Source: Lentibacillus jeotgali (GTDB taxonomy: Bacteria > Bacillota > Bacilli > Bacillales > Amphibacillaceae). From it: a stretch of 64,000 nucleotides of DNA. Of this stretch, positions 8,756-47,087 are shown piece after piece (position 1 is the first letter of the stretch; each line of letters opens with the position of its first letter). The notes beneath the pieces were generated by a model. That model was given only the letters and a program-made list of their open reading frames with translations. It searched no databases and was not told where the DNA came from. The stretch is from positions 62,001 through 126,000 of the forward strand of contig NZ_AGAV01000005.1 of NCBI RefSeq assembly GCF_000224785.1. Reading direction: 5' to 3'. The position numbers and the translations under genes were made by a program.

Positions 8756-9038
8756 TTATGAATCACTCCTGATGTTATAAAGTTTTCAATAAGAATCATA
8801 CTGCAAATGCTATTTTCAATTCAAGTTTCCCCACTTAGTAATCCACAAATCCATTCTTCCAAGTTTTTAAGTATGATCCGTTAGGTGAATAGAGGTGACA
8901 TACTCATCTGCTGCTACTATAATAGAATCGACATAAATAGTTACTGTCTAACCAGGGGCATAAGATAGTTTTCTCCTGTTTTTTTATTGGGGCAGTGGAC
9001 TGATTCAATATCTTCTCGCCATGAAGGGACCGTACAGT
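8756..9038 (+). promoter_or_regulatory. Leader of the citrate two-component genes, with a sigma-A-like promoter
   Basis: GTGACA (8895-8900), 17 bases, then TATAAT (8918-8923) is a good vegetative promoter match, about 115 bases upstream of the sensor kinase start. Nothing else recognisable is present between the amidohydrolase remnant and the kinase. Confidence 0.5.
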
Positions 9039-28114: not shown

Positions 28115-28152
28115 CACAGTATGATTAATGAACGTGATCATGATATATGTGC

Positions 28153-28184
28153 AAACTGCATTCCCTCGGGAGTGCAGTTTTTTT
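28153..28184 (+). terminator. Terminator of the TPP riboswitch
   Basis: AAACTGCA pairs with TGCAGTTT around a TTCCCTCGGGAG hairpin loop, followed by T residues; the expression platform for ykoFEDC. Confidence 0.88.
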
Positions 28185-28211
28185 GTTAAAAAATTAAGGA
28201 GGAGGAGAAAC

Positions 28212-28805
28212 ATGAATAGCAACAATTGCGGAACAAGCAGACTTGCAGGGTGCCAGTTCACTTTGTATCCGATGAGTGACAAGTTCGTTGACATTATTTT
28301 GGGGGCGCTGGAAGAAGTGGACACGTCGAAGGTTTGGAAGGAAACCGATGACGTGAGCACGTGTGTGCGTGGGAAGATGGTACACGTTTTCGATGTGATT
28401 AAGGCACTTTTTCTGCATGCGGCAAAGACAGGGGAACATATAGCGATGAGCGGCACGTTTTCTATCGGTTGCCCGGGAGATTCAGATGCGGATTCCTATA
28501 TGGATGAAGTGGATACACCGCTAAATGAAACAAAATCAAATGAGTTACTTCAGAAAGCCGGCTGTAAATTTTCCCTTTACCCGATGGGCACAGAGGATTA
28601 TATGGACGCAATCTACGAACAAATTGATCTTTCCAAACACCGGAACGTTAAGGTGAGTGCTGCTCATTACGCGACGAGACTAGATGGCGAGGTGAAAGAT
28701 ATCTTTCAAGCGTTATATCAGTCTTTTGACAGTGTGCAGGAGAAGGTCTCCCATGTCACCATGTCATTTACTATTTCGGCCAACAGTCCATCCAATAAGG
28801 CATAA
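28212..28805 (+). CDS. ykoF: YkoF, HMP/thiamine-binding protein
   Basis: 197 residues from ATG 28212 with GGAGGAGG upstream. Two tandem ferredoxin-like YkoF domains can be seen from their parallel openings: AGCQFTLYPMSDKFVDII (about residues 12-29) and AGCKFSLYPMGTEDYMDAI (about residues 117-135). In B. subtilis YkoF binds thiamine or its pyrimidine moiety and is co-transcribed with the ECF transporter YkoEDC. Here it is the first gene behind the TPP riboswitch. Its role as a cytoplasmic binding partner of the transporter follows from that knowledge. Confidence 0.93.
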   Translation: MNSNNCGTSRLAGCQFTLYPMSDKFVDIILGALEEVDTSKVWKETDDVSTCVRGKMVHVFDVIKALFLHAAKTGEHIAMSGTFSIGCPGDSDADSYMDEVDTPLNETKSNELLQKAGCKFSLYPMGTEDYMDAIYEQIDLSKHRNVKVSAAHYATRLDGEVKDIFQALYQSFDSVQEKVSHVTMSFTISANSPSNKA

Positions 28806-28816
28806 AGGGGATTTTT

Positions 28817-29422
28817 ATGACGAAGCAATGGAAATTGAAAGAAATTGTCTTGATGTCGATTTTGGGCGTGGTCTTCGGGGTTATTTACCTGGCATTCTTT
28901 CTGGTTGGCGAAGGAATTCGGAATATCCTGGCGCCATTGGGTTTGGCACCGTTTGGCTATGAAGTCATCTATGGCGTTTGGTTTATTGTCGCAATAATGG
29001 CGGCTTACATTCTCCGTAAGCCTGGAGTTGCCTTCACTGCCGAAGTGATCGCAGGCGTCGTCGAGATCTTGCTTGGTTCGGCGGCTGGGCCTGGGTTGCT
29101 TCTTTCAGCCGCCATTCAGGGGGCAGGTGCAGAACTTGTTTTTGCCTTGACCGGGTGGAAGGATTATCGGCTGCGGGTTCTCGTATTATCCGGTATATCG
29201 ACTGCCGTGGTCAGTTTTGCCTGGCATTTGTATTCAGCCGGGATGATTGCCCTGGCACCGTGGCTGATTATCTCAACGTTGATTGTACGGATTATCAGTG
29301 CCGCTCTGATCTCGGGGGTTCTTGGCAAATGGCTCAGCGATCAGCTCGCAAAAACTGGTGTGCTCCGAGGCTATGCTTTAGGGAAAGACTTACAAAGGAA
29401 GCGGAAATATGAAAGTGCTTAA
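28817..29422 (+). CDS. ykoE: YkoE, ECF transporter S component (HMP/thiamine)
   Basis: 201 residues with about six membrane segments. It starts KEIVLMSILGVVFGVIYLAF and has the stretches EVIAGVVEILLGSAAGPG and IQGAGAELVFALTGWKDY. This is the substrate-capturing integral membrane subunit of the ECF-type transporter for hydroxymethylpyrimidine or thiamine. The gene lies 11 bases after ykoF, and its stop overlaps the ykoD start region by 14 bases. Confidence 0.93.
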   Translation: MTKQWKLKEIVLMSILGVVFGVIYLAFFLVGEGIRNILAPLGLAPFGYEVIYGVWFIVAIMAAYILRKPGVAFTAEVIAGVVEILLGSAAGPGLLLSAAIQGAGAELVFALTGWKDYRLRVLVLSGISTAVVSFAWHLYSAGMIALAPWLIISTLIVRIISAALISGVLGKWLSDQLAKTGVLRGYALGKDLQRKRKYESA

Positions 29423-31004
29423 GGGATACCAGAAGCCGATAATAGAGGTGCATAATTTTTCCTTTTCCTATGAAGAAGTCGATGAACAACGGTTATTTGA
29501 TGGTCTTGACTTTAAGCTGAACCAAAATGAAGTAACGCTTTTAATGGGACCAAGCGGATCAGGGAAAAGCAGCCTGGCGCTTTGTCTCAACGGACTCTAT
29601 CCGGAAGCCGTCGAAGGGACGTCTTCCGGGGATATCTTTTTCCTTGGAGAAAACATCCAGGAATATGAGAAAGGTGAGTTGACCCAGGAAATCGGTATTG
29701 TCTTCCAGGATCCGGAAAGCCAGTTTTGCATGATTACAGTGGAGGATGAGCTGGCGTTCACTCTGGAAAATAGAAAGATTCCCGCTTCCGACATTCGTGG
29801 AAGAATTGAATCGGTGCTGAGAGCCGTCGGTATGAAAGGTTTTAATCAGCACAAAATTCATGAATTCTCGGGTGGTCAGAAACAAAAAATTGCCCTCGCT
29901 GCCGTACTTCTGCTTGAACCCAAATTGCTGATTCTTGATGAACCAACAGCGAATTTGGACCCGGTATCAAGCCTGGAATTTATTGGGCTCGTGGAGGGGA
30001 TACAAAGGGAACAGCAGATATCTGTTCTGATTATTGAGCATCAGGCTGAGGAATGGCTCCGGCTGATTGATAGGATATTGGTAATGGGAAGCGACGGGCT
30101 TCTTTTGGCGAGTAATGTCCCGGAGCGGCTGTTCATAGAAGAAAGGCAACTCCTGGAACGCGAAGGCATTTTTCTGCCTGGAAAATATTCCAATCGCCCT
30201 GCCTTTCGAGAAAGGTGGCATTGGGACGTGCAATCCGATGAAAAAGTTCTTTCTGCCCGTGGTTTGTCTTTTTCCCGCGGAAAACAAGACGTATTGAAGA
30301 AGGTGAATATGGATATCCGTGGCGGGGAGTTTGTTGCTGTTGCCGGGGAGAATGGAGCAGGAAAATCGACGCTTCTTCAACTATTGGCCGGACTTCTGGA
30401 GCCGGGAGAAGGGGAAATCTGCATGTTTGACCGCCCACTTCGAAAATGGCAGGAGAATGACCTGCGGAAGCGGATGGGTTTTGTGTTCCAGAATCCGGAA
30501 CATCAGTTTATAACTGATACTGTTTATGAGGAGCTGACATTCGGGATGAAACTCAACGGTTATGCCGAAGAAGAAATGAAAAATACCGCTGAAGGGCTGA
30601 TGGAACAGTTTTATCTGACGGAACACCGTCACAGCAATCCGTTTGCTTTAAGCGGCGGACAGAAGCGGCGTTTGAGTGTGGCGACGGTGCTTGATGAGAC
30701 CCCTGATGTGCTGTTGTTTGATGAGCCGACATTCGGTCAGGATGCCGCTACAACGGTTGAATTAATGGATTATGTCATGGGGCTCAAAGCGAAGGGGAAG
30801 GCAATTATTTTCGTTACCCATGATATGAATATTTTAGACACTGCCGATCGTGTCGATGTCCTGGAACAGGGAAAAGTGGCGTTCTCTGGGCCACCGGATT
30901 CTTTATGGCAGGAAAGGAAACTCCTTAGCGAAGCCAGGCTGCTGCTTCCGGCAAGGCTTCGGCAAAAGCAACGGGAAGGTGAGATTTATGATCTCATCCA
31001 TTAA
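29409..31004 (+). CDS. ykoD: YkoD, ECF transporter ATPase with two ABC domains
   Basis: 531 residues with two ABC domains in one chain. Domain 1: Walker [10 protein letters not shown], signature FSGGQKQKIALAA, Walker B LLILDEPTANLDP. Domain 2: Walker A GENGAGKSTLLQLL, signature LSGGQKRRLSVATV, Walker B VLLFDEPTFGQD. The double ATPase energises YkoE through the YkoC coupling protein. ATG 29409 has AAAGGAAG upstream and overlaps ykoE. Confidence 0.95.
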   Translation: MKVLKGYQKPIIEVHNFSFSYEEVDEQRLFDGLDFKLNQNEVTLLMGPSGSGKSSLALCLNGLYPEAVEGTSSGDIFFLGENIQEYEKGELTQEIGIVFQDPESQFCMITVEDELAFTLENRKIPASDIRGRIESVLRAVGMKGFNQHKIHEFSGGQKQKIALAAVLLLEPKLLILDEPTANLDPVSSLEFIGLVEGIQREQQISVLIIEHQAEEWLRLIDRILVMGSDGLLLASNVPERLFIEERQLLEREGIFLPGKYSNRPAFRERWHWDVQSDEKVLSARGLSFSRGKQDVLKKVNMDIRGGEFVAVAGENGAGKSTLLQLLAGLLEPGEGEICMFDRPLRKWQENDLRKRMGFVFQNPEHQFITDTVYEELTFGMKLNGYAEEEMKNTAEGLMEQFYLTEHRHSNPFALSGGQKRRLSVATVLDETPDVLLFDEPTFGQDAATTVELMDYVMGLKAKGKAIIFVTHDMNILDTADRVDVLEQGKVAFSGPPDSLWQERKLLSEARLLLPARLRQKQREGEIYDLIH

Positions 31005-31767
31005 CCCGTCGATTAAGCTGGTTGCCGTCTTGATTCCGGGAATATTGCTCGGACTCACATATGGTGTCTTCACGCCGTTATTGTATTTTATATTTATGTT
31101 GATGGTAACTTTCACCATGACCAATATTCCGATTTTGCGCTGGCTGAAACTGTTTAGCCCATTTATCATTCTCGCACTGGGCTTTGCCTGGACGACCATG
31201 CTTTATGCCAATCAGACCTTTTCCGGCGGTGAAGAAATCTTTAGCCTATGGGCGTTTGAAGTGACGGCTGGCAGTTTCCAGACAGGGGTGAGTGTTGGAC
31301 TCAGATCGCTCTGTTTCGGTGCACTGTCTCTGATGTTTATCCTGACAACGGATTCGACGAAATTGATGCTCAGCTTCATGCAGCAATTCAAACTACCACC
31401 GAAAATTACATACGGCATCCTGGCCGGTTACCGCTTCTTGCCCGTATTCCAGCATGAACTGCAGATACTTAGACAGGCACACCGCGTCCGGGGTTTCAGC
31501 CGGGCGCGTGGCATTAAAGGAAGGCTCAATCAATTCCGGCGTTATGCGATTCCACTTCTGGCAAACGGCATCCGAAAAGCGGAGCGTGTCTCCATTGCAA
31601 TGGAATCGAAGGGTTTCACCGGTGACACTGACCGCACACATTATCATCGTATGACTGTCGGAAAGCGTGACTGGCTGTTCTTTGCATTAATGGTCGGTGT
31701 CTTGATAGCTGTGTTTGCTTTGTCGTATTACTTGGGCTACTTGCAAATATTTGGGAAGCAGTTTTGA
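30988..31767 (+). CDS. ykoC: YkoC, ECF transporter T component
   Basis: 259 residues from ATG 30988, with GAAGGTGAG upstream and a 17-base overlap with ykoD; the longer upstream frame lies inside ykoD. It has about five membrane segments and the two coupling helices expected of EcfT proteins, with LRQAHRVRGFSRARG and RKAERVSIAMESKGF (both rich in Arg and Gly). It links the ATPase YkoD to the S component YkoE. A terminator follows the gene. Confidence 0.93.
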   Translation: MISSINPSIKLVAVLIPGILLGLTYGVFTPLLYFIFMLMVTFTMTNIPILRWLKLFSPFIILALGFAWTTMLYANQTFSGGEEIFSLWAFEVTAGSFQTGVSVGLRSLCFGALSLMFILTTDSTKLMLSFMQQFKLPPKITYGILAGYRFLPVFQHELQILRQAHRVRGFSRARGIKGRLNQFRRYAIPLLANGIRKAERVSIAMESKGFTGDTDRTHYHRMTVGKRDWLFFALMVGVLIAVFALSYYLGYLQIFGKQF

Positions 31768-33985: not shown

Positions 33986-34041
33986 GAAAAAGGGGCATGA
34001 TTGAGGAAATTATTTTTCCTTATATCATGTCCCTTTTTTTG
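33986..34041 (+). terminator. Strong terminator after the FbpB-like gene
   Basis: AAAAGGGGCATGAT pairs with ATCATGTCCCTTTTT (one mismatch), with further AGGAAA/TTTTCCT pairing in the loop and seven T. Confidence 0.88.
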
Positions 34042-34145
34042 TTCTCATTTCGATTATATAAAAAAGGGAGAAAAGTATTAACTGTCAGATATGGTCGAAA
34101 TCTGAAGAAATTAGCAGGGATTCTACGAAATAAACTTTGTGAACT

Positions 34146-34185
34146 TTATACAATAAAAATTGCACAGATTTTTGAAATTGTATAA
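34146..34185. promoter_or_regulatory. Inverted repeat upstream of the OpuC operon, possible GbsR-type operator
   Basis: TTATACAAT (34146-34154) and ATTGTATAA (34177-34185) form perfect 9-bp arms separated by 22 bases. The promoter TTGTAT-16-TATACT for the operon follows at about 34200-34227. This placement would let a choline/betaine-type repressor such as the GbsR protein encoded downstream block opuC transcription. Operator function is inferred. Confidence 0.45.
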
Positions 34186-34273
34186 GGATAAATGCTTGTT
34201 TGTATGAATGGCTTTTTCCTCTATACTTGTAAAAGTGTTCAAACGGAAAGTAATTTTTGGAGGTGCAATCACA

Positions 34274-35428
34274 TTGTTACAGTTTAACCACGTGTTCAAA
34301 ACATATTCAGACGGTACATCAGCCGTCAAAGATTTAAACTTAAAAATAAATAAAGGAGAGTTTGTTTGTTTTATCGGTCCCAGTGGATGCGGAAAAACAA
34401 CAACTATGAAAATGGTAAATCGTCTGATCGACATAACTGAAGGTTCCATTTTGGTCGATGACAAGGATATTAAGGATCAGGATGCTGTCGAATTGCGGCG
34501 TTCGATGGGATATGTCATTCAGCAGATCGGTCTGATGCCGCATATGACCATTAAAGAAAACATCGTGCTTGTCGGAACCCTCCTGAAATGGTCGAAGGAG
34601 AGGAAGGATGAGCGTGCTCGTGAACTGCTGAAGCTTGTTAATATGCCAGAGGAATACCTGGATAAATATCCGCATGAACTTAGTGGTGGCCAGCAGCAGC
34701 GTATTGGTGTTCTGCGGGCACTTGCCGTCAACCCCCCGCTTATTTTGATGGATGAACCTTTCGGGGCACTTGACCCGATTACAAGAGATTCTTTGCAGGA
34801 GGAATTTAAAAAACTGCAAAAGGAACTTAACAAAACGATTATATTTGTTACGCACGACATGGATGAGGCGCTTAAGCTGGCAGATAAAGTCGTCATCATG
34901 CGTGACGGTGAAGTCGTTCAGGCTGATACACCGGAGGAAATTCTAAGACATCCGGCAAATGAATTTGTAGAAGAATTTCTTGGCCGGGATCGTCTTATTC
35001 AGGGTAAACCTGATGTGACAACTGTCGGGCAGATTATGGAAAGTTCTCCGGTAACAGCTCAAACTGGTGCGACGCTCAAATCAGCGATATCTACTATGCG
35101 CGACCGGCATGTTGATTCATTGCTTGTCGTTGACTCGAATAATGTGCTGCAGGGTTACATTGATATTGAAGCGATGAACCTGAACTATAAGAAGGCAAAC
35201 ATTGTTGATGATTTGATGGAAACAGACGTGTTTTCAGTATCCGGTGAGAGTCTACTGCGCGACACGGTTCACAAAATTCTTCGCCGGGGAGCAGCATACG
35301 TTCCGGTTGTGGATGAAGCTTACCATCTGGAAGGCATCGTAACGCGTGCAACACTTGCCAATTTGGTCTATGACACGATTTGGGGCGACGGCAAGGAGCT
35401 CGAAGAAAAGGTAGCAGCAGCGGAATAG
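34274..35428 (+). CDS. opuCA: OpuCA, osmoprotectant ABC transporter ATPase with CBS domains
   Basis: 384 residues from TTG 34274 (GGAGGTG 9 bases upstream; the frame back to 34208 has no site). ABC domain: Walker A GPSGCGKTTT, signature LSGGQQQRIGVLRA, Walker B ILMDEPFGALDP and H-loop FVTHDMDEAL. Two C-terminal CBS domains (about residues 250-370) sense ionic strength or cyclic di-AMP in this family. It drives uptake of glycine betaine, carnitine or choline together with OpuCB, OpuCC and OpuCD, encoded next. The adjacent carnitine-degrading operon makes carnitine a likely substrate. Confidence 0.93.
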   Translation: MLQFNHVFKTYSDGTSAVKDLNLKINKGEFVCFIGPSGCGKTTTMKMVNRLIDITEGSILVDDKDIKDQDAVELRRSMGYVIQQIGLMPHMTIKENIVLVGTLLKWSKERKDERARELLKLVNMPEEYLDKYPHELSGGQQQRIGVLRALAVNPPLILMDEPFGALDPITRDSLQEEFKKLQKELNKTIIFVTHDMDEALKLADKVVIMRDGEVVQADTPEEILRHPANEFVEEFLGRDRLIQGKPDVTTVGQIMESSPVTAQTGATLKSAISTMRDRHVDSLLVVDSNNVLQGYIDIEAMNLNYKKANIVDDLMETDVFSVSGESLLRDTVHKILRRGAAYVPVVDEAYHLEGIVTRATLANLVYDTIWGDGKELEEKVAAAE

Positions 35429-35441
35429 GAGGTGTGTAGCA

Positions 35442-36086
35442 ATGATGGAGTTTTTTGCAGAACATGGAAATGAGCTGGTCATAAAAACGTGGGAACACTT
35501 TTATATTTCACTGGCAGCTATGTTACTAGGCGTAATAGTTGCAGTACCGCTCGGTGTCCTGCTATCACGGGTGCCGAAATTGGCTGACAGGTTAATTTCA
35601 TTTGTTGGTATTTTACAGACCATTCCAAGTCTGGCGATTTTGGCCTTTTTCATTCCGATAGTAGGCATCGGAAAAATCCCGGCGATCCTGGCACTGTTTT
35701 TTTACTCACTGCTTCCGATTTTACGTAATACGTATATAGGGGTTCGTGACGTAGATCAAGGCGTTGTGGAAGCTGGAAAAGGCATGGGAATGAGTAATTG
35801 GCAATCAGTTCTAAAAATGGAATTGCCATTATCACTGCCGGTTATTATGGCTGGGATTCGGCTCTCGACTGTTTATTTGATTGGATGGGCTGCACTCGCC
35901 GCATTTATCGGCGGTGGCGGACTTGGTGATTTTATATTTGACGGTTTGAATCTGTATCAGCCATCACTGATTCTGGCTGGAACGATCCCGGCAACGATTT
36001 TAGCAGTGATTGCCGATCGTTCACTGGCACTATTGGAAAGTAAACTCACACCTGAGGGATTAAAGGACAGCTATGAAGCAGCATAA
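35442..36086 (+). CDS. opuCB: OpuCB, osmoprotectant ABC transporter permease
   Basis: 214 residues, about six membrane segments, with the permease loop VVEAGKGMGMSNWQSVLKME and PVIMAGIRLSTVYLIGWAALAAFIGGGGLG. Together with OpuCD it forms the transmembrane channel. AGGAGGTG precedes the start (ATGATG at 35442). It lies between the ATPase and the binding lipoprotein, in the usual opuC order. Confidence 0.94.
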   Translation: MMEFFAEHGNELVIKTWEHFYISLAAMLLGVIVAVPLGVLLSRVPKLADRLISFVGILQTIPSLAILAFFIPIVGIGKIPAILALFFYSLLPILRNTYIGVRDVDQGVVEAGKGMGMSNWQSVLKMELPLSLPVIMAGIRLSTVYLIGWAALAAFIGGGGLGDFIFDGLNLYQPSLILAGTIPATILAVIADRSLALLESKLTPEGLKDSYEAA

Positions 36087-36103
36087 CGTTGGAGGTGAAC
36101 GGA

Positions 36104-37033
36104 TTGAAGAGTCGATTAGTTAAAGGATTTGGTATATGTATGTTGGTTGTGATGCTTTCAGGCTGCTCATTGCCCGGACTTGCAGGCACATCACAGGATA
36201 CAATTAAAATCGGATCGTTGACCCAATCTGAATCGGAAACAATGGCCCAAATGCTCGCCATTTTAATTGAAAGAGAAACAGACGCGCAAACTGAACTGGT
36301 GACAAAACTTGGTTCATCCATTGTACAGCATCAGGGGATGCAGCGGGGAGACATTGATATATCAAGCACTCGCTATACCGGTACAGATATAGCGGGAGCG
36401 CTTGATATGGAGCCAATTAAGGATCCGGATAAGGCGCTTAAAACGGTAAAACGCGAATTTCAGGATCGATTCAATCAGACCTGGGAAGAAACATATGGGT
36501 TTGCAAACAGTTATTCCATTGCTGTTACAGAGGAATTTGCTGCAGAACACGATATTGAGACAATCTCTGATCTTGAGCCTCTTGCAGATGATTTACGATT
36601 CGGTGTTGATAATGCCTGGGTTAACCGGGAAGGCGATGGCTATGAAGGATTCCAGGAAACGTACTTTGACTTTGGCAATGTTTATCCGATGAATCTGGGT
36701 CTCGTCTATCAGGCGGCAGCAACCGGTAATATGGATGTCGTGCTGGCCTATTCTTCAGACGGTCGAATCAAAGAATATAATTTAAAAGTGCTGGAGGATG
36801 ATAAGCAGTTCTTCCCGCCTTATGACGCTTCACCGGTGATAAATAATGAAGTTCTGGAAAAATATCCGAAAATCAAAGATATCACTAGGCGTCTTCACAA
36901 TGAGATTTCCACAGAGGAAATGCAGGAATTGAATTATATGGCGGATGTTGAGCGGGTCAACCCACGAAAAGTAGCCAAACAATTCCTTGAAAAAAATAAT
37001 TACTTCGAGAACGATCAGGAAGGAGGCGGTTAA
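36104..37033 (+). CDS. opuCC: OpuCC, osmoprotectant-binding lipoprotein
   Basis: 309 residues from TTG 36104 (GGAGGTG 6 bases upstream). The signal peptide ends in the lipobox VMLSGC, so the mature protein is anchored to the membrane surface. The body has the OpuAC-type fold: IKIGSLTQSESETMAQMLAI, STRYTGTDIAGAL, and the ligand region with YGFANSYSIAV and VNREGDGYEG. It captures quaternary ammonium compounds for the permeases OpuCB and OpuCD. Confidence 0.92.
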   Translation: MKSRLVKGFGICMLVVMLSGCSLPGLAGTSQDTIKIGSLTQSESETMAQMLAILIERETDAQTELVTKLGSSIVQHQGMQRGDIDISSTRYTGTDIAGALDMEPIKDPDKALKTVKREFQDRFNQTWEETYGFANSYSIAVTEEFAAEHDIETISDLEPLADDLRFGVDNAWVNREGDGYEGFQETYFDFGNVYPMNLGLVYQAAATGNMDVVLAYSSDGRIKEYNLKVLEDDKQFFPPYDASPVINNEVLEKYPKIKDITRRLHNEISTEEMQELNYMADVERVNPRKVAKQFLEKNNYFENDQEGGG

Positions 37034-37034
37034 T

Positions 37035-37682
37035 GTGGGGACAATACAAGAATTCATCAATTATGTAGGTGCGAATGCTGATTATATTTGGACAGAGTTT
37101 TACAGGCATTTTCTGATGTCGATCTATGGCGTGTTATTTGCGTCGATTATATCGATTCCGATTGGGATCCTTATTGCAAAATATGGCAAGCTGAGCAGTT
37201 GGGTACTGGCTGCAGGAAGTATCATTCAAACGATCCCGGCATTAGGCGCCATGGCCGTGATTATGATTGTGATGGGGCTTGGTACAAATACGGCGATTAC
37301 TACATTAGTGCTTTATTCAATTCTACCAATTACCCAAAATACGTATGTTGGCATGAAAAATGTTGACAAGACAGTTATTGAAGCCGGTTACGCGTCCGGT
37401 ATGACGAAATTTCAGTTGTTAAGAATGGTTGAAATCCCTCTGGCGGTCAGTGTGATTATGGCGGGTATCCGAACGGCTCTGGTTATCGGTATTGGCATAA
37501 TAGCAATCGGCGCGTTTATCGGTGCCGGGGGACTGGGGGCCATCATTGTGACAGGAACCAATGCTACGGATGGCACGCCCATCATCCTTGCCGGGGCTAT
37601 CCCGACAGCTATTATGGCCATTTTGGCTGATGTTGTCCTGGGGTGGATTGAACAAAGATTGCAGCCGGGCAAGACAGCTTAA
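37035..37682 (+). CDS. opuCD: OpuCD, osmoprotectant ABC transporter permease
   Basis: 215 residues from GTG 37035, one base after the lipoprotein stop, with GGAGGCGG 6 bases upstream. It has about six membrane segments and the permease loop VIEAGYASGMTKFQLLRMVE, then VIMAGIRTALVIGIGIIAIG. It forms the second transmembrane subunit. The opuC operon of four genes ends here; the gbsR-like gene starts 91 bases downstream. Confidence 0.94.
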   Translation: MGTIQEFINYVGANADYIWTEFYRHFLMSIYGVLFASIISIPIGILIAKYGKLSSWVLAAGSIIQTIPALGAMAVIMIVMGLGTNTAITTLVLYSILPITQNTYVGMKNVDKTVIEAGYASGMTKFQLLRMVEIPLAVSVIMAGIRTALVIGIGIIAIGAFIGAGGLGAIIVTGTNATDGTPIILAGAIPTAIMAILADVVLGWIEQRLQPGKTA

Positions 37683-37773
37683 TGAAGTGGTATCCAACGC
37701 TGGAACAGCAATTTTAATTTAATACCCAAAATGATAAGGTTTAGTTAATCACGTCATAAAAAGGGAGATTGAC

Positions 37774-38331
37774 ATGTCTAATCAAAACGAAAAAATTGAA
37801 GATGTCAAAACGCAATTTATCGAAAAAATAACCGATAATATGAATGCTTTTGGGGCTCCGACAAGCGTTGGCCGAGTTCTTGGGATCATTTACATGAATG
37901 GGGAGCCGATGACACTGGATGAGCTGGCAGCCGAAACGGGAATGAGCAAGACCAGGATGAGCCAGATTGTTCGGGAAATGATCGATATGAATATTGCTGA
38001 ACGTGTATTTAAAAAAGGTGTTCGCAAAGACTTATATCAGGTTGAAGAAGATTATTACGAAACATTCATTTCGCTATTTACATCGACATGGCAAAGGGCG
38101 ATCAGCCGAAGCAGACACTTTGAACAACGGCTTAAGAAAAAAATCGATGAGTTAAAGCAGGATCCGGAATTGACTGAAGACAATGAACAGGCAATTAATG
38201 AATTACTGACTGAACTCCACGAATGGACGGAATACTATGATTGGATTCGCCGTGTCAATAACTTTTTCGAAAGTGGAGAAATTTTTAAGCATGTACCTAA
38301 AAAATCAACAGGAGGCGATAAAGATGAATAA
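37774..38331 (+). CDS. gbsR: GbsR/MarR-family regulator (choline- or carnitine-responsive type)
   Basis: 185 residues with a winged helix (DELAAETGMSKTRMSQIVRE, recognition helix; wing VFKKGVRKDLYQVEEDY) and a helical C-terminal part. This is the GbsR/OpcR type, which represses osmoprotectant uptake or choline-to-betaine conversion and is released by choline or a related ligand. It overlaps the first carnitine gene by 8 bases, so it is the first gene of that operon and probably regulates it and opuC. The ligand is inferred. Confidence 0.85.
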   Translation: MSNQNEKIEDVKTQFIEKITDNMNAFGAPTSVGRVLGIIYMNGEPMTLDELAAETGMSKTRMSQIVREMIDMNIAERVFKKGVRKDLYQVEEDYYETFISLFTSTWQRAISRSRHFEQRLKKKIDELKQDPELTEDNEQAINELLTELHEWTEYYDWIRRVNNFFESGEIFKHVPKKSTGGDKDE

Positions 38332-39217
38332 AAACGTCATTCTATCATGTGCGGTGACAGGAGCAGGAGACACCACTGCCAAAAGTCCGCATGTACCGGT
38401 GACGCCGAAAGAGATTGCCGATTCGGCAATTAAAGCAGCCAAAGCAGGTGCGACGATAGCTCATGTCCATGCGCGTGAACCGAAAACAGGCGGGTTGAGC
38501 CATGATGTCAGTCTGTATCAGGAAATAGTGGAACGGATACGCGAGTCGGAGACCGATGTGATTATTAACATTACATCCGGCGGCGGCGGTGACTGGGTTC
38601 CGAGCGAAGATGATCCGACTAGCGGTGGCGAAGGGACTGACATCCAGACACCTGAAGAACGCCATGAACCAGTCGGCAAACTGCTGCCGGAAATGTGCAC
38701 ACTTGATTGCGGGAGCACTAATTTCGGCAACATGCTTTATGTCAGCCCGACTGACTGGCTGCGCAGGCAGGCAAAACTTGTCCAGGAAAGCGGTGTGAAG
38801 CCTGAACTGGAATGTTTCGACACAGGGCATGTTCGTTTTGCCAACCAATTGATTAATGAAGGTTTGATTGACGGTGATCCGCTATACCAATTCTGTCTCG
38901 GTATACCTTGGGGAGCGGCAGCTGATGCTGAAACGTTGTCCTATATGAAAAGCCGGATTCCGGAAAACGGCAGATGGGCAGCCTTTGGAATCGGTCGGAT
39001 GCAGTTGCCGATTGTTGCGGAATCCGTTCTGCAAGGCGGAAACATCCGCGTAGGGCTGGAGGACAATCTTTATCTGAAAAAAGGACAGCTGGCAACAAAC
39101 GAACAGCTTGTCGATAAAGCTGCCGGCATTGTACAAAGTCTGGGATCTGATATCATGACACCGGCTGAAGCACGCAAAGAATTAAATCTTTTAAACCCAT
39201 ATGGAAAGGAAGACTAG
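38324..39217 (+). CDS. Beta-keto acid cleavage enzyme (BKACE), dehydrocarnitine cleavage
   Basis: 297 residues from ATG 38324 (ACAGGAGG 9 bases upstream). It is a DUF849/BKACE TIM barrel: VILSCAVTGAGDTTAKSP, the metal-binding AHVHAREPKTGG with HxH, NITSGGG, and PELECFDTGHV. Such enzymes transfer the acyl part of a beta-keto acid to CoA with acetyl-CoA. Next to a carnitine dehydrogenase and a thioesterase, the substrate is most likely 3-dehydrocarnitine, giving betainyl-CoA and acetoacetate, as known for Pseudomonas. Confidence 0.88.
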   Translation: MNKNVILSCAVTGAGDTTAKSPHVPVTPKEIADSAIKAAKAGATIAHVHAREPKTGGLSHDVSLYQEIVERIRESETDVIINITSGGGGDWVPSEDDPTSGGEGTDIQTPEERHEPVGKLLPEMCTLDCGSTNFGNMLYVSPTDWLRRQAKLVQESGVKPELECFDTGHVRFANQLINEGLIDGDPLYQFCLGIPWGAAADAETLSYMKSRIPENGRWAAFGIGRMQLPIVAESVLQGGNIRVGLEDNLYLKKGQLATNEQLVDKAAGIVQSLGSDIMTPAEARKELNLLNPYGKED

Positions 39218-39218
39218 C

Positions 39219-40190
39219 ATGACAGCGCAGGAACAATCAATAAAAAACATTACCGTTGTCGGGACAGGCGTTATCGGCAACGGCTGGATTACACGATTTT
39301 TGGCAAACGGCTATACGGTTACAGCTTCAGACCTGGATCCGGCTGCTGAAGCACGTACGCGTGATGCTGTTGAAAGAGCATGGCCGAAAATGGAAGAAAT
39401 GGGGCTGGCAGAAGGCGCTTCGCAGGATAACCTGTTTTTTGAACCGGATATGCAGTCAGCTTTGGCTAATGCAGACTTTGTACAGGAAAATGTACCGGAG
39501 CGGGAGGAATTAAAGCGAAGTGTGATCGCCGATATCGATAAATATGCACCAAATGAAGCCGTAATTGCATCAAGTACATCCGGAATACTGCCGAGTACGT
39601 TGCAGGCGGATTGTCGGCACCACCCTGAACGCGTCATGGTTGCACATCCGTTCAATCCGGTATATCTGGTGCCCCTTGTTGAGCTTGTCGGTGGCAACAA
39701 AACCAGCGTGTCTTTCATTGAAAAAGCAAAGAATTTTTACGATGGTATGAAAATGAAGCCGCTTGTTGTGCACCAGGAAATAGAAGGGCATATAGCCGAT
39801 CGACTGATGGAGGCCATCTGGCGTGAATCACTGCATATCGTTAATGATGGTGTGGCAACGACTGAAGAAGTTGATGCCTCGATCATATATGGACCGGGAC
39901 TTCGCTGGGCACTGATGGGGCCTTTCATGACCTTGCACATGGGCGGCGGAAAACAGGGCATGCGCCATTTGCTGAAACAGTTCGGTCCGGCATTAAAATT
40001 GCCATGGACGAAGCTGGAAGCACCGGAATTAACAGATGAACTGGCAGATAAGGTGGTAACCGGGAGTGAAACACAAACCGGTGATGTGGAAATGGAAAAA
40101 CTTGAAGAACGACGCGATCAATTTTTAATTGAGCTGCAGCAGCTGCTGGAAAAATACTGGCCGGGAGCTAACCTGGAAGGCAGACTGTAA
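39219..40190 (+). CDS. L-carnitine dehydrogenase
   Basis: 323 residues of the 3-hydroxyacyl-CoA dehydrogenase family. NAD-binding GTGVIGNGWITRFLANGY with an acidic residue at the end of the second strand (TASDLD), then FVQENVPEREELK, SSTSGILPS, and AHPFNPVYLVPLVE; the C-terminal half forms the helical dimer domain. ATG 39219 follows the BKACE stop by one base and has GGAAAGGAAG upstream. It oxidises L-carnitine to 3-dehydrocarnitine with NAD+. The gene neighbourhood (BKACE, thioesterase, OpuC) supports the specific call. Confidence 0.88.
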   Translation: MTAQEQSIKNITVVGTGVIGNGWITRFLANGYTVTASDLDPAAEARTRDAVERAWPKMEEMGLAEGASQDNLFFEPDMQSALANADFVQENVPEREELKRSVIADIDKYAPNEAVIASSTSGILPSTLQADCRHHPERVMVAHPFNPVYLVPLVELVGGNKTSVSFIEKAKNFYDGMKMKPLVVHQEIEGHIADRLMEAIWRESLHIVNDGVATTEEVDASIIYGPGLRWALMGPFMTLHMGGGKQGMRHLLKQFGPALKLPWTKLEAPELTDELADKVVTGSETQTGDVEMEKLEERRDQFLIELQQLLEKYWPGANLEGRL

Positions 40191-40213
40191 GATGATGATA
40201 AGGGGGATATACC

Positions 40214-40687
40214 ATGGGTGAAGCGAAGGTAATTATTCAGAATACGGTTCCGAAAAAATGGATTGATTATAACGGTCATATGAATGATGCTGAATATGTC
40301 CGTGCATTCAGCTGGGGTGTCGATCGTTTCATGAATCTGATTGGCATTACAGAAGGTTTTCGTGAACGGAACCAGTATACGATTTATACGATGGAGACGC
40401 ACGTTTGTTACCTGGATGAAATGAAGCTTGATGAATCATTCGAAGTCCACATACAAATTATCGACTATGATGCCAAACGTGCCCATGTGTTTTATGAACT
40501 GTTCGGAGAGAATGGCAAACGTGCGGCAACGAGTGAACAGATGCTCATGGGGATCGATCAATCAGCCGGCAGGGCGGCATCATTTCCGGAAGAAATCTAT
40601 GAAAACTTGAAGGAACTGGCAGAGGACCATACACCTGATGAAAAACCGAAAGAAGCAGGACGCGTGATCGGAATCAAACGAAAATAA
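40214..40687 (+). CDS. Hotdog thioesterase, betainyl-CoA hydrolysis
   Basis: 157 residues, a single 4HBT-type hotdog domain: DYNGHMNDAEYVRAFSWGVD with the conserved N/H/D region, then THVCYLDEMKLDESF. AAGGGGG precedes ATG 40214, 23 bases after the dehydrogenase stop. In the carnitine pathway it would hydrolyse betainyl-CoA to glycine betaine and CoA, which completes conversion of carnitine to the compatible solute. It ends the operon before a strong terminator. Confidence 0.82.
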   Translation: MGEAKVIIQNTVPKKWIDYNGHMNDAEYVRAFSWGVDRFMNLIGITEGFRERNQYTIYTMETHVCYLDEMKLDESFEVHIQIIDYDAKRAHVFYELFGENGKRAATSEQMLMGIDQSAGRAASFPEEIYENLKELAEDHTPDEKPKEAGRVIGIKRK

Positions 40688-40748
40688 CCGCGTCATCCAA
40701 GTCATACTTGAGTTGACTGTGTAACGACAAAATAAACATTAGGATAGA

Positions 40749-40793
40749 AAAAACAGCCGCTGATACTGGCCTGCATCAGCGGCTGTTTTTTTA
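40749..40793 (+). terminator. Terminator of the carnitine operon
   Basis: AAAAACAGCCGCTGAT pairs with ATCAGCGGCTGTTTTT, followed by T residues. Very stable 16-bp stem. Confidence 0.95.
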
Positions 40794-43262: not shown

Positions 43263-44813
43263 ATGAGATTCAGCTCATTTTTCAGAAGCAAACACAAGAA
43301 CAATGAGAATACGCATGAATTTCCGGTTGATCTTAAAAAATCGCTGGATAAAAATCTGGATACATTGAAACAAATGCTGGAAAATCCAAATGATTTGATG
43401 ATACGTGTATTTTCTCTGGGTCAGACGGAACGGCGCTGTGCCATTGTTTATATTGATGGTCTGGCCGATAGAATGGAAATTAATACGAATGTGATGAAAA
43501 ACCTTCAGCTATTTGCTTATAAAGAAAATCTTCCAGCTGGAGCAGGTAAGTTGCTGCAGGAGGTGGAAAAAGAGCTCGTCTCAGTCGGTGATGTTACCAC
43601 GGGCCATGATCTGGATGATGCTGCAAACGGTCTCCTTTATGGAAGTACACTGGTTTATCTGGATGGAGTCGATCAGGTGTTAATCATTGGTATGAAAGGA
43701 TGGGATACCCGTGCCATCTCAGAACCGATTTCCGAATCGCTGATCAGGGGACCGCGTGAAGGATTCACCGAAAACTACAGGACAAATACCACGATGATTC
43801 GCCGCCATATCCGCGATCCGAATTTAAGATTTAAAACGTATGATATCGGCCGGCGTTCCAAGAAAAAACTGTCTGTCGCATACATAGAAGGGATCATTCA
43901 TCCCGACTTGATCAAAGAGATTGATCGACGGGTTAAATCAATTGATTTGGATGACGCACCAGAGTCAGGTTTTATTGAAGAATGGATTGAGGACAGTTTT
44001 CTGTCACCGTTTCCGCAGCTCATAAACACGGAGCGGCCTGATAAAGTTTCCACCGCACTTCTGCAGGGGAAGGCAGGCATTATCCTGGATGGGACACCAT
44101 TTGCTCTGATAGCCCCGGCGACACTTGGAGGCACTTTGCAATCGCCTGAAGATTATTATGAGCGGTGGATGATCGGAAGTTTTTTGAGATTATTGCGTTA
44201 TTTTGCGTCATTTCTGGCTATGTTCCTGCCGGCATTGTATATTGCGCTGGTTTCCTATCACCAGGGGATGATACCTTCCCAGCTTGCGTTTTCCATTGCA
44301 GCCACCCGTGAAGGTGTCCCGTTCCCGGCATTTATTGAGGCTATCATGATGGGAATGACGATGGAACTACTCCGCGAAGCCGGTGCACGCCTGCCGACAA
44401 CCATCGGAAATACCATTGGGATTGTCGGCGGTCTTGTCATTGGGGAGGCAGCTGTTCAAGCGGGAATTGTCAGTCCGGTTATGGTAATTGTTGTCGCACT
44501 GACTGCGATTGCTTCATTTTCCATACCTGCGTACAGTGTAGCCATTTCCTTCCGCCTTCTGCGCTTCGCTTTCATGATGGCTGCCGCGATTCTTGGTTTG
44601 TATGGAATTGTGCTTATCTACATTATGATTAACATTCACATCGTCAATTTGAAGAGTATTGGTGTTCCTTATTCAGCACCATTTTCGCCGACTTTCTTCA
44701 GGGACTGGAAAGATCTTGTTTTACGGGCTCCCATTACGATGCGACCAAGAAGGCCATCTTTTTTGCGGACAGATGACAGCAAATCTGCCAATAAGGGGGA
44801 TTCCAGTCAATGA
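43263..44813 (+). CDS. GerA-family spore germinant receptor, A subunit
   Basis: 516 residues. A hydrophilic N-terminal region of about 300 residues (VEKELVSVGDVTTG, DDAANGLLYGSTLVYLDG, WDTRAISEPISESLIRGPREGF, RSKKKLSVAYIEGI) precedes five or six membrane segments, the GerA/GerKA/SpoVAF layout. GAGG precedes ATG 43263. The subunit senses germinants in the inner spore membrane with the B and C subunits encoded next. Overlap of 4 bases with the B gene. It proves that the organism sporulates. Confidence 0.93.
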   Translation: MRFSSFFRSKHKNNENTHEFPVDLKKSLDKNLDTLKQMLENPNDLMIRVFSLGQTERRCAIVYIDGLADRMEINTNVMKNLQLFAYKENLPAGAGKLLQEVEKELVSVGDVTTGHDLDDAANGLLYGSTLVYLDGVDQVLIIGMKGWDTRAISEPISESLIRGPREGFTENYRTNTTMIRRHIRDPNLRFKTYDIGRRSKKKLSVAYIEGIIHPDLIKEIDRRVKSIDLDDAPESGFIEEWIEDSFLSPFPQLINTERPDKVSTALLQGKAGIILDGTPFALIAPATLGGTLQSPEDYYERWMIGSFLRLLRYFASFLAMFLPALYIALVSYHQGMIPSQLAFSIAATREGVPFPAFIEAIMMGMTMELLREAGARLPTTIGNTIGIVGGLVIGEAAVQAGIVSPVMVIVVALTAIASFSIPAYSVAISFRLLRFAFMMAAAILGLYGIVLIYIMINIHIVNLKSIGVPYSAPFSPTFFRDWKDLVLRAPITMRPRRPSFLRTDDSKSANKGDSSQ

Positions 44814-45916
44814 CGCGCTTTGAGTATTCTGATGATTATATTAGTGACAAGGAAATTCTGATTGCTGTCCCTTCCATTATGATTGGGGTAGGGATTCTAT
44901 CGGTTCCGAAAGACCTGGCAGAACAGACGATTGGCTCTGATGGCTGGCTCCCTCTAGCGGCAGGCGGCGTTATTGTTATTGCCATGACATGGTTAGTGGC
45001 CCGTTTGGCTGCAAAATTTCCGCAGCAAAGTTTCCTTGCCTATTCGTCAAAGATCACCTCCAGACCTGCCGGGATTGCTTTTACGGTGCTGCTCTCTATC
45101 CAGGGCATTATGCTGACGGCCTATGAGACACGTATTATAGCAAATGTGGCCGACCAATATCTGTTTGACAGAACACCCGTTGAAGTAGTGGCGCTCGCCT
45201 TTTTGCTTGTTGTGGTATATGCCGTGTCAGGATCCCGGACAGGTTTGTTTCGGCTGAATATGATGTTCCTCCCGATCATTTTGGCAATATCACTTATTGT
45301 TATGGTATTTACGACAGGATGGTTTGAACCCGGCAATCTGCTTCCAGTTATGAGGACAGATGCAGCCGGTTTTTGGAATGCGATGAATCAGAGTACGTTT
45401 TCCTATATCGGGTTTGGCATTCTTTTGTTTTATACGGCATTGGTAAAAAATCCGAAAAATGTTCCGTGGAAAGCTTCAGCCGGTGCTTCGATTGCTGTCT
45501 TCCTCTATATTCTGTTCTATCTGATCTGTATTGGTGTTTTCGGTAATTTGGTAACAGCCAACCTGCAGTATCCCACTGTTGAATTGGCGAAGGAGGTTAA
45601 AATTCCCGGCGGCTTTTTTGAACGTTTTGAATCATTATTTTTTGTGATTTGGATTATGGCAATCTTTAATACGACAACAATGGCAATGGATGCAGCTGTG
45701 TTTGCGTTAAATTCGATTTTTAAAAAGGATCGGAAAATGCCAATTATTTTTCTGCTTGCCCCACTGGCATACTTAATGGGAATGATACCTGAGGACATCA
45801 ATGAGGTGTCAGCGTTTGGAACATTCACATCCTACTACGGGGCTGCGATTACTGTATCAATTACGATTCTGCTTTATATGATAGCAAAACTCAGAGGTGT
45901 TAAAGCCAATGATTAA
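44810..45916 (+). CDS. GerB-family spore germinant receptor, B subunit (permease-like)
   Basis: 368 residues, about ten membrane segments of the GerB/APC-like fold. It begins FEYSDDYISDKEILIAVPSI, includes GIGILSVPKDLAEQTIGSDGWL-like early residues, and VKNPKNVPWKA in the middle. It binds nutrient germinants with the A subunit. It overlaps the A gene by 4 bases and the C gene by 8 bases, so the operon is fully coupled. Confidence 0.93.
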   Translation: MTRFEYSDDYISDKEILIAVPSIMIGVGILSVPKDLAEQTIGSDGWLPLAAGGVIVIAMTWLVARLAAKFPQQSFLAYSSKITSRPAGIAFTVLLSIQGIMLTAYETRIIANVADQYLFDRTPVEVVALAFLLVVVYAVSGSRTGLFRLNMMFLPIILAISLIVMVFTTGWFEPGNLLPVMRTDAAGFWNAMNQSTFSYIGFGILLFYTALVKNPKNVPWKASAGASIAVFLYILFYLICIGVFGNLVTANLQYPTVELAKEVKIPGGFFERFESLFFVIWIMAIFNTTTMAMDAAVFALNSIFKKDRKMPIIFLLAPLAYLMGMIPEDINEVSAFGTFTSYYGAAITVSITILLYMIAKLRGVKAND

Positions 45917-47087
45917 GTGGATATGCCGACTTCAATTTATCTTAATGATTGCTTTTATGACAGGCTGTTGGGATAGTGTAGAGATTGAGCAGCGAGGCTT
46001 TGTGCTGGGGATTGCAGTTGATGTGCCGAAAGAAGGAACAGGCAATGAAAATGCGGCAACAATGACCAACCAGCTTGTTGTTCCGTCAGCTCTCGGGGGA
46101 CCAACGCAAAGCAGCGGTGATCAAAAAGCGTTTGCCAACTTATCAGCTACCGGAAACAGTATGTTCGCTGTTTTACGGGAATTGAGTACGCAGACAAGCC
46201 GTTCACCTTATCTTCCACACCTGCAGGCTATGGTTGTATCTTCGGAACTTGCTGAAAAACCGCATATGTTTGCAAGTATCATGGATTTGTTCCTCCGTGA
46301 CCATGAAATGCGACGGAGTGTGAGCATCATCATTTCAGAGGGAGAGGCGAAAGAAATGCTTGAAGTGACAACTGAAAATGAAAAAATTCCTGTGATGCAT
46401 ATTCAGTCGACTCTGGAAAACAGTTATAAAAATGCCGGTGTCATCAAACCAGTCCGGATCGGTGAAGTGCACAGTTACCTGCTAAAGCAAGACAGTTATG
46501 TGCTCCCGAGGATGGTCAAGCGGGGTGATAAGCTGGATCACGAGGGTGCGGCGGTCTTTCAGGGCTACAGCAATCGCATGATCGGTACACTCGGATCACA
46601 AGAAACTAAGGGGTATAATCTGATAACCGGCAGGACTGCGGGCGGGAGTCTTAAGGCTGAAGTAGAGGATCAGCCGGTGACAGTAGAAATGATGAGTCTG
46701 AATAGTTCCATCAGGATCACAAACATAGCCGCAGAGCGTGTTGATGTTTCGGTAAATGCTCAGGTGGAAGGGCAAATATCCGAAACATTTGGCACACAAA
46801 ACGTGACGTCTGAAGAAAATGTAAAGGAATTGGAAAAAAGTATGGAATCCAAAATGAAAAAGCTGATGAATCAGACAATCGAAAAGGTACAGAAAGAATT
46901 GCAGGCCGATGTTCTTGGTATCGAAGAAGAACTGCGCCGGCATCACTATAACCATTGGGAGAAGATTAAGAATGACTGGGACCACGGTCAAAACATTTTT
47001 GCCGAAAGCACGATAAATGTTACTGCACAGGTTAATATTGACGCACCTGGTGCAGCTGACAAGACGCAAAAACAGAGGAGCAGATAG
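45909..47087 (+). CDS. Ger(x)C-family germinant receptor, C subunit (lipoprotein)
   Basis: 392 residues from ATG 45909 (AGAGGTG 9 bases upstream; the earlier frame start at 45897 lacks a site). Lipobox AFMTGCWDS makes Cys the lipidated residue. The family opening CWDSVEIEQRGFVLGIAVD and a long helical C-terminal domain (ENVKELEKSMESKMKKLMNQ) are clear. It completes the GerABC-type receptor complex on the outer face of the inner spore membrane. It overlaps the B gene by 8 bases. Confidence 0.93.
   Translation: MIKWICRLQFILMIAFMTGCWDSVEIEQRGFVLGIAVDVPKEGTGNENAATMTNQLVVPSALGGPTQSSGDQKAFANLSATGNSMFAVLRELSTQTSRSPYLPHLQAMVVSSELAEKPHMFASIMDLFLRDHEMRRSVSIIISEGEAKEMLEVTTENEKIPVMHIQSTLENSYKNAGVIKPVRIGEVHSYLLKQDSYVLPRMVKRGDKLDHEGAAVFQGYSNRMIGTLGSQETKGYNLITGRTAGGSLKAEVEDQPVTVEMMSLNSSIRITNIAAERVDVSVNAQVEGQISETFGTQNVTSEENVKELEKSMESKMKKLMNQTIEKVQKELQADVLGIEEELRRHHYNHWEKIKNDWDHGQNIFAESTINVTAQVNIDAPGAADKTQKQRSR

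Follow-up and report, generated by a model that had tools for sequence, protein, structure and literature searches.

A putative carnitine-to-glycine betaine operon with its own OpuC transporter and GbsR-family regulator in Lentibacillus jeotgali

Introduction

In Bacillus, carnitine is usually regarded as an osmoprotectant that the cells take up and retain. In Pseudomonas aeruginosa, it is converted to glycine betaine by the products of the caiX-cdhCAB-hocS operon, which has osmoprotection among its named uses and also serves nutrition (PMC5806209). In Staphylococcus xylosus in salted meat, the transcripts of opuCABCD and lcdH were increased (first of three listed values, 24.8 and 22.8; PMC4742526). 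The authors proposed that carnitine is taken up and converted to glycine betaine as an osmoprotectant (PMC4742526, PMC5620643), and lcdH transcripts also rose in a dairy matrix (PMC7698506). Regulators of opuC of the OpcR type have been described as well (PMC6207618, PMC7396694). Here, we analyzed a stretch of 64,000 nucleotides from Lentibacillus jeotgali (contig NZ_AGAV01000005.1, positions 62,001 to 126,000 of the forward strand; hereafter the window), which belongs to a genome of 3.78 Mb and carries in a row opuCABCD, a gbsR-type gene, and the genes of a BKACE protein, a carnitine-3-dehydrogenase-like protein (CDH), and a hotdog thioesterase. Judged from the sequence, these eight genes quite probably form one osmoprotectant-supply operon, by which carnitine would be imported and converted to glycine betaine under the control of its own GbsR-family regulator.

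We take cdhC, cdhA, and cdhB of P. aeruginosa to encode the BKACE, the dehydrogenase, and the thioesterase, respectively, which would give the enzyme order BKACE-CDH-thioesterase of the window. The P. aeruginosa operon likewise encodes a carnitine-binding protein and comes with a regulator of its own. Unlike in the window, this regulator (CdhR) is divergent and belongs to a family other than GbsR, the genes of the core transporter CbcWV lie outside the operon, and the operon includes hocS, the gene of a short-chain acylcarnitine hydrolase (PMC5806209). That the enzymatic steps are known from Pseudomonas had been stated in an earlier sequence-only reading of the window and agrees with the description of this operon (PMC5806209). 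In S. xylosus, opuC and carnitine dehydrogenase genes also lie close together (PMC4742526, PMC5620643), and the BKACE and thioesterase steps are unnamed in the available text of the three papers (PMC4742526, PMC5620643, PMC7698506). The S. xylosus locus compared here (L180; locus and genome numbers are ours) has the order TetR-BKACE-CDH-thioesterase-opuCABCD-esterase, with opuC downstream, and the GbsR-type repeat of the window is absent from it (best match 3.6 bits). The osmoprotective interpretation, which the sequence-only reading had put forward as deserving attention, has already been published for the opuC and lcdH genes of this species (PMC4742526, PMC5620643).

The OpcR-opuC and GbsR-gbsAB/opuB circuits of B. 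subtilis resemble the predicted unit in combining a GbsR-family repressor and an A/T-rich operator with the import or synthesis of osmoprotectants, but they serve choline and general import (PMC7396694, PMC6207618). Carnitine has no mention in the main text of PMC7396694 and two in that of a survey of 179 GbsR-family proteins, neither of them for such a gene set (PMC6207618). The same predicted chemistry, with a BKACE gene nearby, is present in Paracoccus (L062), Leisingera (L108), and Rhizobium (L109), while the alphaproteobacterial carnitine 3-dehydrogenases are longer and have a thioesterase-like end, no separate thioesterase gene follows, and the regulators and transporters are different. 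In the Leisingera cluster, an acetoacetate-CoA ligase gene is annotated. Searches of one open-access library, outside of which most subscription papers lie, gave no paper on a GbsR-family regulator of carnitine genes. The new part is the regulator together with its predicted site, rather than the enzymes or the idea of osmoprotection.

Results

Eight Genes Between Two Strong Hairpins

The eight genes lie on the + strand and are bracketed by two strong hairpins, so that they look like a single unit of about 6.6 kb. The sequence-only reading had named the same set; the limits of the genes are within a few codons of those it gave, and the families found with hidden Markov models (HMM) agree. The features of the unit are as follows.

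33988..34042, + strand, probable terminator upstream of the operon (hairpin and T run; -28.3 kcal/mol, z -8.4, 0 of 200 shuffles as stable)
34142..34171, strand not assigned, predicted GbsR-type operator, an A/T-rich inverted repeat (matrix scoring and pattern match)
34177-34185, additional half-site ATTGTATAA beside the predicted GbsR-type operator (sequence)
34200..34227, + strand, putative opuCA promoter, TTGTAT - 16 bp - TATACT (sequence)
34274..35428, + strand, opuCA, ATPase with CBS domains (TTG start behind GGAGG; TIGR01186 proV, 495.9 bits, cut-off 326.6)
35442..36086, + strand, opuCB, permease (permease domain by HMM)
36089..37033, + strand, opuCC, binding lipoprotein (OpuAC domain by HMM; lipobox LSGCS)
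37035..37682, + strand, opuCD, permease, GTG start (permease domain by HMM)
37774..38331, + strand, GbsR-family (OpcR/CudC-like) regulator (HMM families and tree)
38324..39217, + strand, BKACE, predicted dehydrocarnitine cleavage enzyme, cdhC-like (HMM, alignment, and tree)
39219..40190, + strand, CDH, carnitine-3-dehydrogenase-like, cdhA-like (HMM and invariant residues)
40214..40687, + strand, hotdog thioesterase, predicted betainyl-CoA thioesterase, cdhB-like (HMM and structure matches)
40747..40792, + strand, probable terminator downstream of the operon (hairpin and T run; -28.4 kcal/mol, z -7.8, 0 of 200 shuffles as stable)

The overlap of the gbsR-type gene with the BKACE gene, which had been noticed before, amounts to 8 bp between the stop of the former and the start of the latter. 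The 91-bp gap between opuCD and gbsR contained no hairpin comparable to the bounding ones when its folding was compared with shuffles (z -0.9). A scan for consensus promoters and terminators listed four terminator-like sites compared to 6.1 in shuffles; neither bounding hairpin was among them, and the putative opuCA promoter was absent from the promoter list. The first TTG of opuCC is at 36089, and the TTG at 36104, which is preceded by GGAGG, is the better fit for a start.

The OpuC Transporter and the Three Enzymes

The transporter genes encode a CBS-bearing ATPase, two permeases, and an OpuCC-type binding protein, in which OpuAC, ABC_tran, CBS, and permease domains were identified by HMM. 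The best Protein Data Bank (PDB) match of OpuCC was 3ppn (356 bits), a glycine betaine/carnitine/choline-binding protein. Compared with the solved carnitine-binding OpuCC, the four cage tyrosines were retained. In the genome search, this OpuCC was the sole close one, and the next match was 33% identical.

The BKACE protein matched PF05853 with 334 bits (cut-off 24.8) and contains the GLED motif and the His-x-His metal motif. Its residues H47-x-H49, R225, and E246 align with Kce (2y7d), and we assume that H47/H49, R225, and E246 have the active-site roles. In a tree of 43 rows, the protein was placed within a 31-row group (support 83/99) from Bacillota and Gammaproteobacteria, which is separate from Kce and L058-L060 and most members of which adjoin a carnitine dehydrogenase gene. 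The border of the carnitine group is blurred, since the 31-row group shares an unresolved fork with the Paracoccus, Leisingera, and Rhizobium rows, whose BKACE genes sit near annotated carnitine 3-dehydrogenases, and with the PDB chains 3c6c and 9zsc. All 37 inner rows have Cys129 and Cys191, a pair found post hoc that all five of the outer rows compared lack.

The dehydrogenase has 3HCDH_N/3HCDH domains by HMM. Among the 19 families listed, its best NCBIfam model was L-carnitine dehydrogenase (PRK07066, 377 bits), followed by a second carnitine model (350 bits), and the best non-carnitine model reached 227.5 bits, 122 below the latter. G15-x-G17-x-x-G20, D38, H143, and E155 were invariant in an alignment of nine rows; presumably, the Asp belongs to the NAD motif and the His and Glu are catalytic. 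The thioesterase, encoded after CDH, is a 4HBT_2 hotdog protein whose best NCBIfam match was the C-terminal part of the carnitine 3-dehydrogenase model (347-495 of 495, 131 bits). It also matched two solved thioesterases, 5eo2 (1.7e-26) and 2hlj (4.5e-25), the second of which we take to be a Pseudomonas putida protein from a carnitine locus. None of the solved-structure matches of the enzymes is named as a carnitine dehydrogenase or as a dehydrocarnitine-cleaving BKACE.

The families, the gene order, and the context support the predicted pathway of the sequence-only reading, which comprised import, oxidation, cleavage with acetyl-CoA, and hydrolysis of betainyl-CoA. The predicted route from carnitine through 3-dehydrocarnitine and betainyl-CoA to glycine betaine is strong by homology. 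A single enzyme of Sinorhizobium meliloti has been credited with two steps of the route, the first (dehydrogenase) and the last (betainyl-CoA) (PMC12482172). In the open-access library searched, no work joining dehydrocarnitine, a thioesterase, and glycine betaine was found.

A GbsR-Family Regulator Distinct From CudC

The regulator has a MarR-type winged helix of the GbsR/CudC/OpcR kind and shares the stretch SKTRMSQ with opuC-linked family members. It was rejected as an equivalog of the choline regulator CudC, since it scored 148 bits against a cut-off of 218 and another protein fills this role. Four further GbsR homologues are encoded in the genome, one of which reached 279 bits for CudC (cut-off 218), and its gene is divergent to a betaine-aldehyde dehydrogenase gene (714 bits, cut-off 669). 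These results indicate a separate regulator for choline conversion. In a 36-row tree, which was midpoint-rooted, has several long branches, and is unsure in its details, the carnitine-linked and opuC-linked regulators formed a clade of 30 rows (99/100), with the other four homologues of the genome outside.

A Conserved Inverted Repeat Upstream of opuCA

An A/T-rich inverted repeat that is conserved among the relatives lies at 34142-34171, upstream of opuCA, and is the predicted operator. Its pattern matched once in the window compared to 0.08 expected, and seven of 100 shuffles had one match. In the whole genome, it was the only site with two or fewer mismatches; six sites had three mismatches, about as many as with a reversed-pattern control (five matches in all). 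The distance from the end of the repeat to the putative -35 box of opuCA is 28 bp, and TTGnnn-16-TATACT was seen by eye upstream in several relatives.

The first-pass consensus scores (of 24) were 17-22 for 24 GbsR loci, 15-20 for 32 TetR loci, and 12-22 for 51 others. This score is circular because the consensus was derived from the same loci, and a leave-group-out matrix was used instead, with groups and sites hand-picked from the first-pass scoring. The repeat was the top match of the window locus with 32.9 bits, and the next match reached 7.2 bits. A strong internal repeat before gbsR was thus rejected for the window, while L039 has one (25.4 bits). Across the 21 scored loci (the 24 GbsR loci minus L112, L034, and L119), the top match lay at the expected promoter, before opuCA, gbsR, or BCCT, in every case, with 18.7-34.8 bits; no next-best match exceeded 12.0 bits other than those of L039 and L114 (16.3 bits, same promoter).

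The controls were 24 loci, hand-chosen from 107 and including L112, L034, and L119, which were scored with the full matrix. Of the three left-out loci, L112 has only 78 bases before opuCA in its stretch, and its best match was 1.2 bits and elsewhere; the best match of L034 was 33.8 bits, but before other genes; and L119 had 14.9 bits, 148 bp upstream of gbsR. The thirteen TetR-type controls, two of them staphylococcal, gave 0.4-11.0 bits. The split was blurred by L037 (19.0 bits) and L041 (27.9 bits), both of which have a second BKACE copy as well as a TetR-type gene. L043 (36.0 bits) and L111 (36.3 bits), in which no gbsR is adjacent, have the repeat between BCCT and BKACE, a finding that speaks for control in trans. 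The repeat was not found in the BCCT-type loci without gbsR, L045, L047, L135, and L147 (0.5-7.3 bits).

Conservation of the Gene Order

Relatives were searched for in 80 genomes, the window's own included, and 29 relatives' loci were then fetched. A BKACE match was obtained in 24 of the genomes, among them G050 at only 33% identity. The BKACE, CDH, and thioesterase genes were consecutive in 24 of the 29 loci; the remaining five were L037 and L041, with BKACE copies lacking the full neighbors, and L058-L060, with distant BKACEs. In the 24 complete loci, the neighbor of BKACE was gbsR in 13, a TetR gene in eight, and neither in three. Upstream of the 13 gbsR genes, opuCABCD was co-directional in six (two with an intervening hydrolase gene) and divergent in two, and a divergent BCCT gene was found in three. 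L034 has an upstream binding-protein gene and a serine-hydrolase gene, and no transporter was recognized near the genes of L046.

A profile scan of named genomes gave at least 521 CDH relatives, the best 80 of which were kept as named loci. BKACE, CDH, and thioesterase genes were contiguous in this order in 71 of these 80 (Bacillota 38/38, others 33/42), and gbsR was directly upstream in 10. Among the matches listed, the nearest named carnitine dehydrogenase was that of Oceanobacillus senegalensis (84%). The window's arrangement also occurs in O. senegalensis, Oceanobacillus sp. J11TS1, and Salinibacillus xinjiangensis, where a CocE/NonD hydrolase gene lies between opuCD and gbsR. Chance adjacency was rejected by the synteny across the relatives' and named loci. 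The rarity that the sequence-only reading implied was not supported, as the linkage was found in named loci of Oceanobacillus, Salinibacillus, Cytobacillus, Peribacillus, and Geomicrobium, and a TetR version in staphylococci. The latter, TetR>BKACE>CDH>thioesterase>opuCABCD>esterase, was present in four of five named Staphylococcus loci (L172, L176, L179, L180) and with the same layout in a Staphylococcus epidermidis plasmid record, while no opuC follows in Staphylococcus simulans (L173). The recurrence in other genera, the bounding hairpins, and the operator-like repeat go beyond the earlier reading.

Several hydrolase genes accompany these loci. The CocE/NonD hydrolase (about 560-580 amino acids) lies between opuCD and gbsR in L032, L038, L110, L112, and L116, and after opuCD in L040, L049, L097, L100, L101, and L122. 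It is a candidate acylcarnitine or acylcholine esterase, and its gene is placed like hocS of P. aeruginosa. The esterase after opuCD in L172, L176, L179, and L180 belongs to a hydrolase family unrelated to CocE/NonD, and a serine hydrolase of another unrelated family (Pfam Beta-lactamase family) was found in L034, L043, L050, L052, and L178; the hosts of these two families are staphylococci and some Bacillaceae. TetR-associated enzyme clusters were observed in L050-L057, L117, L118, L123, L126, L128, L132, L136, L139, L157, and L165, and are often followed by an OpuA-like ATP-binding cassette importer and a CocE hydrolase. The S. epidermidis plasmid record (L061, around 8950-9900) has a CDH frame that is interrupted close to its end, and a gene is not annotated there. 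The second BKACE copy of L041 (8960-9904) lies beside short gbsR-like and CDH-like stretches and is perhaps a decayed duplicate of the operon. In the gammaproteobacterial loci (among L133-L171), CDH is about 58-62% identical to that of the window, compared to 44-46% in the alphaproteobacterial ones; an exchange among salt-adapted bacteria is possible.

Other Genes in the Window

At 28128-31767 of the window, a YkoF-like gene is followed by YkoE/D/C-like energy-coupling factor transporter genes; on the assumption that these names are right, this is probably a thiamine-precursor uptake operon. We take three genes at 43263-47087 to resemble a gerA-type spore germination receptor operon.

Discussion

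In the osmoprotectant-supply model, carnitine, and probably other solutes too, would be imported by OpuC. The dehydrogenase would oxidize carnitine to 3-dehydrocarnitine with the reduction of NAD+ to NADH, the BKACE would convert 3-dehydrocarnitine and acetyl-CoA into betainyl-CoA and acetoacetate, and the hotdog thioesterase would hydrolyze betainyl-CoA to glycine betaine and CoA. The GbsR/OpcR-like regulator, bound to the inverted repeat, would repress the whole unit until a carnitine-related ligand appears. Glycine betaine may then accumulate, because the genome is without the tested betaine-breakdown families, and acetoacetate would perhaps be salvaged by a CoA-transferase. An osmoprotective purpose is probable, in view of the OpuC linkage, the GbsR-family regulator with its conserved promoter site, and the absence of these breakdown families. 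The support for this part of the sequence-only reading is circumstantial.

Several points weigh against the model. The dehydrogenase falls below the L-carnitine dehydrogenase equivalog cut-off (377 vs. 414 bits), and the protein is therefore named carnitine-dehydrogenase-like, with its function drawn from context. In P. aeruginosa, the last step has been assigned to DhcAB and not to a thioesterase (PMC12482172). The operator of OpcR overlaps the -35 box and that of GbsR is located downstream of the start (PMC7396694); unlike the former, the predicted repeat is upstream of the -35 box and not on it, so repression is not evident from its position. A second promoter may be located inside the 91-bp gap before gbsR. 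Concerning the fate of betaine, the absence of three breakdown families from the window's genome (FAO_M, MTTB, and the Rieske alpha subunit) covers these families, and anaerobic betaine reductase was not searched for. Furthermore, Rieske alpha was present in five of 24 genomes (G002, G003, G011, G035, and G040), all of which carry BKACE-CDH-thioesterase, G002 in the window's own arrangement, so that betaine may be broken down there. The genome of the window also contains two adjacent CoA-transferase (PF01144) subunit genes, which could serve the salvage of acetoacetate and equally its use as carbon.

The alternative that survives best is an operon mainly for carbon and energy, in which acetoacetate (two acetyl-CoA after activation) and NADH would be the products of value and glycine betaine a by-product that is stored, exported, or degraded. 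It would fit the nutritional role of the P. aeruginosa operon (PMC5806209), the CoA-transferase pair and the acetoacetate-CoA ligase gene of Leisingera, the occurrence of the same enzymes next to a TetR gene in other Bacilli, and the joint presence of Rieske alpha and these enzymes. We nevertheless consider it unlikely, as it leaves aside the linked OpuC and GbsR-family regulator with a predicted site at the OpuC promoter, and because FAO_M, MTTB, and Rieske alpha had no match in the genome of the window. FAO_M, which we take to be of the dimethylglycine/sarcosine dehydrogenase type, was found in none of the 26 genomes searched, and MTTB in none of 24, the window's included in both cases. An open reading frame of 159-162 amino acids follows Rieske alpha in the four genomes read, and to our mind it rather recalls aromatic-ring dioxygenases. 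From the absence of the tested breakdown families, together with the only close OpuC and a separate CudC of its own, we infer that betaine accumulation and osmoprotection are favored.

Control of opuC alone by the GbsR-family protein, in the manner of B. subtilis OpcR and with the downstream enzymes lacking common control, appears quite improbable. The overlap of the gbsR stop with the BKACE start, the 91-bp gap without a strong hairpin, the adjacency of gbsR to BKACE even when opuC is divergent or BCCT substitutes for it, and the repeat between BCCT and BKACE in L043 and L111 all argue for a shared control, while OpcR-type opuC regulators are known (PMC6207618, PMC7396694), the repeat and the putative promoter are situated at opuCA, and in three genomes an opuC-hydrolase locus with its own gbsR lies away from the enzymes (L097, at a contig end, L100, and L101). 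Least probable of all is an action of the enzymes on another beta-hydroxy quaternary ammonium compound or beta-keto acid, for although the BKACE and 3-hydroxyacyl-CoA dehydrogenase families are broad, the family assignment involved no direct alignment to a characterized carnitine enzyme, the equivalog cut-off was missed, and the BKACE tree has its fork with the alphaproteobacterial carnitine-linked rows, 3c6c, and 9zsc, the two top dehydrogenase models are both carnitine models far ahead of the next, the thioesterase resembles the C-terminal part of the carnitine 3-dehydrogenase model, and Cys129/Cys191 separate the inner from the outer BKACE rows, albeit post hoc.

The osmoprotectant-supply model can be extended more tentatively. 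A Bacillaceae sub-branch of the GbsR/OpcR regulators might be a sensor of carnitine or a carnitine derivative, with about one operon per genome; carnitine, instead of being only stored, would then join choline as a second, dedicated precursor of glycine betaine, and the hydrolases in the units of several relatives (CocE/NonD, esterase, and serine hydrolase) would add acylcarnitines.

If the model is true, a second precursor route to glycine betaine, a central osmoprotectant, would exist in many Bacillota, here under a GbsR-family switch. Such a carnitine-to-betaine operon would also be in line with the salt-linked increase in carnitine dehydrogenase transcripts that has been published for food staphylococci, and the predicted 30-bp site opens the question of how carnitine may be sensed to direct testing.

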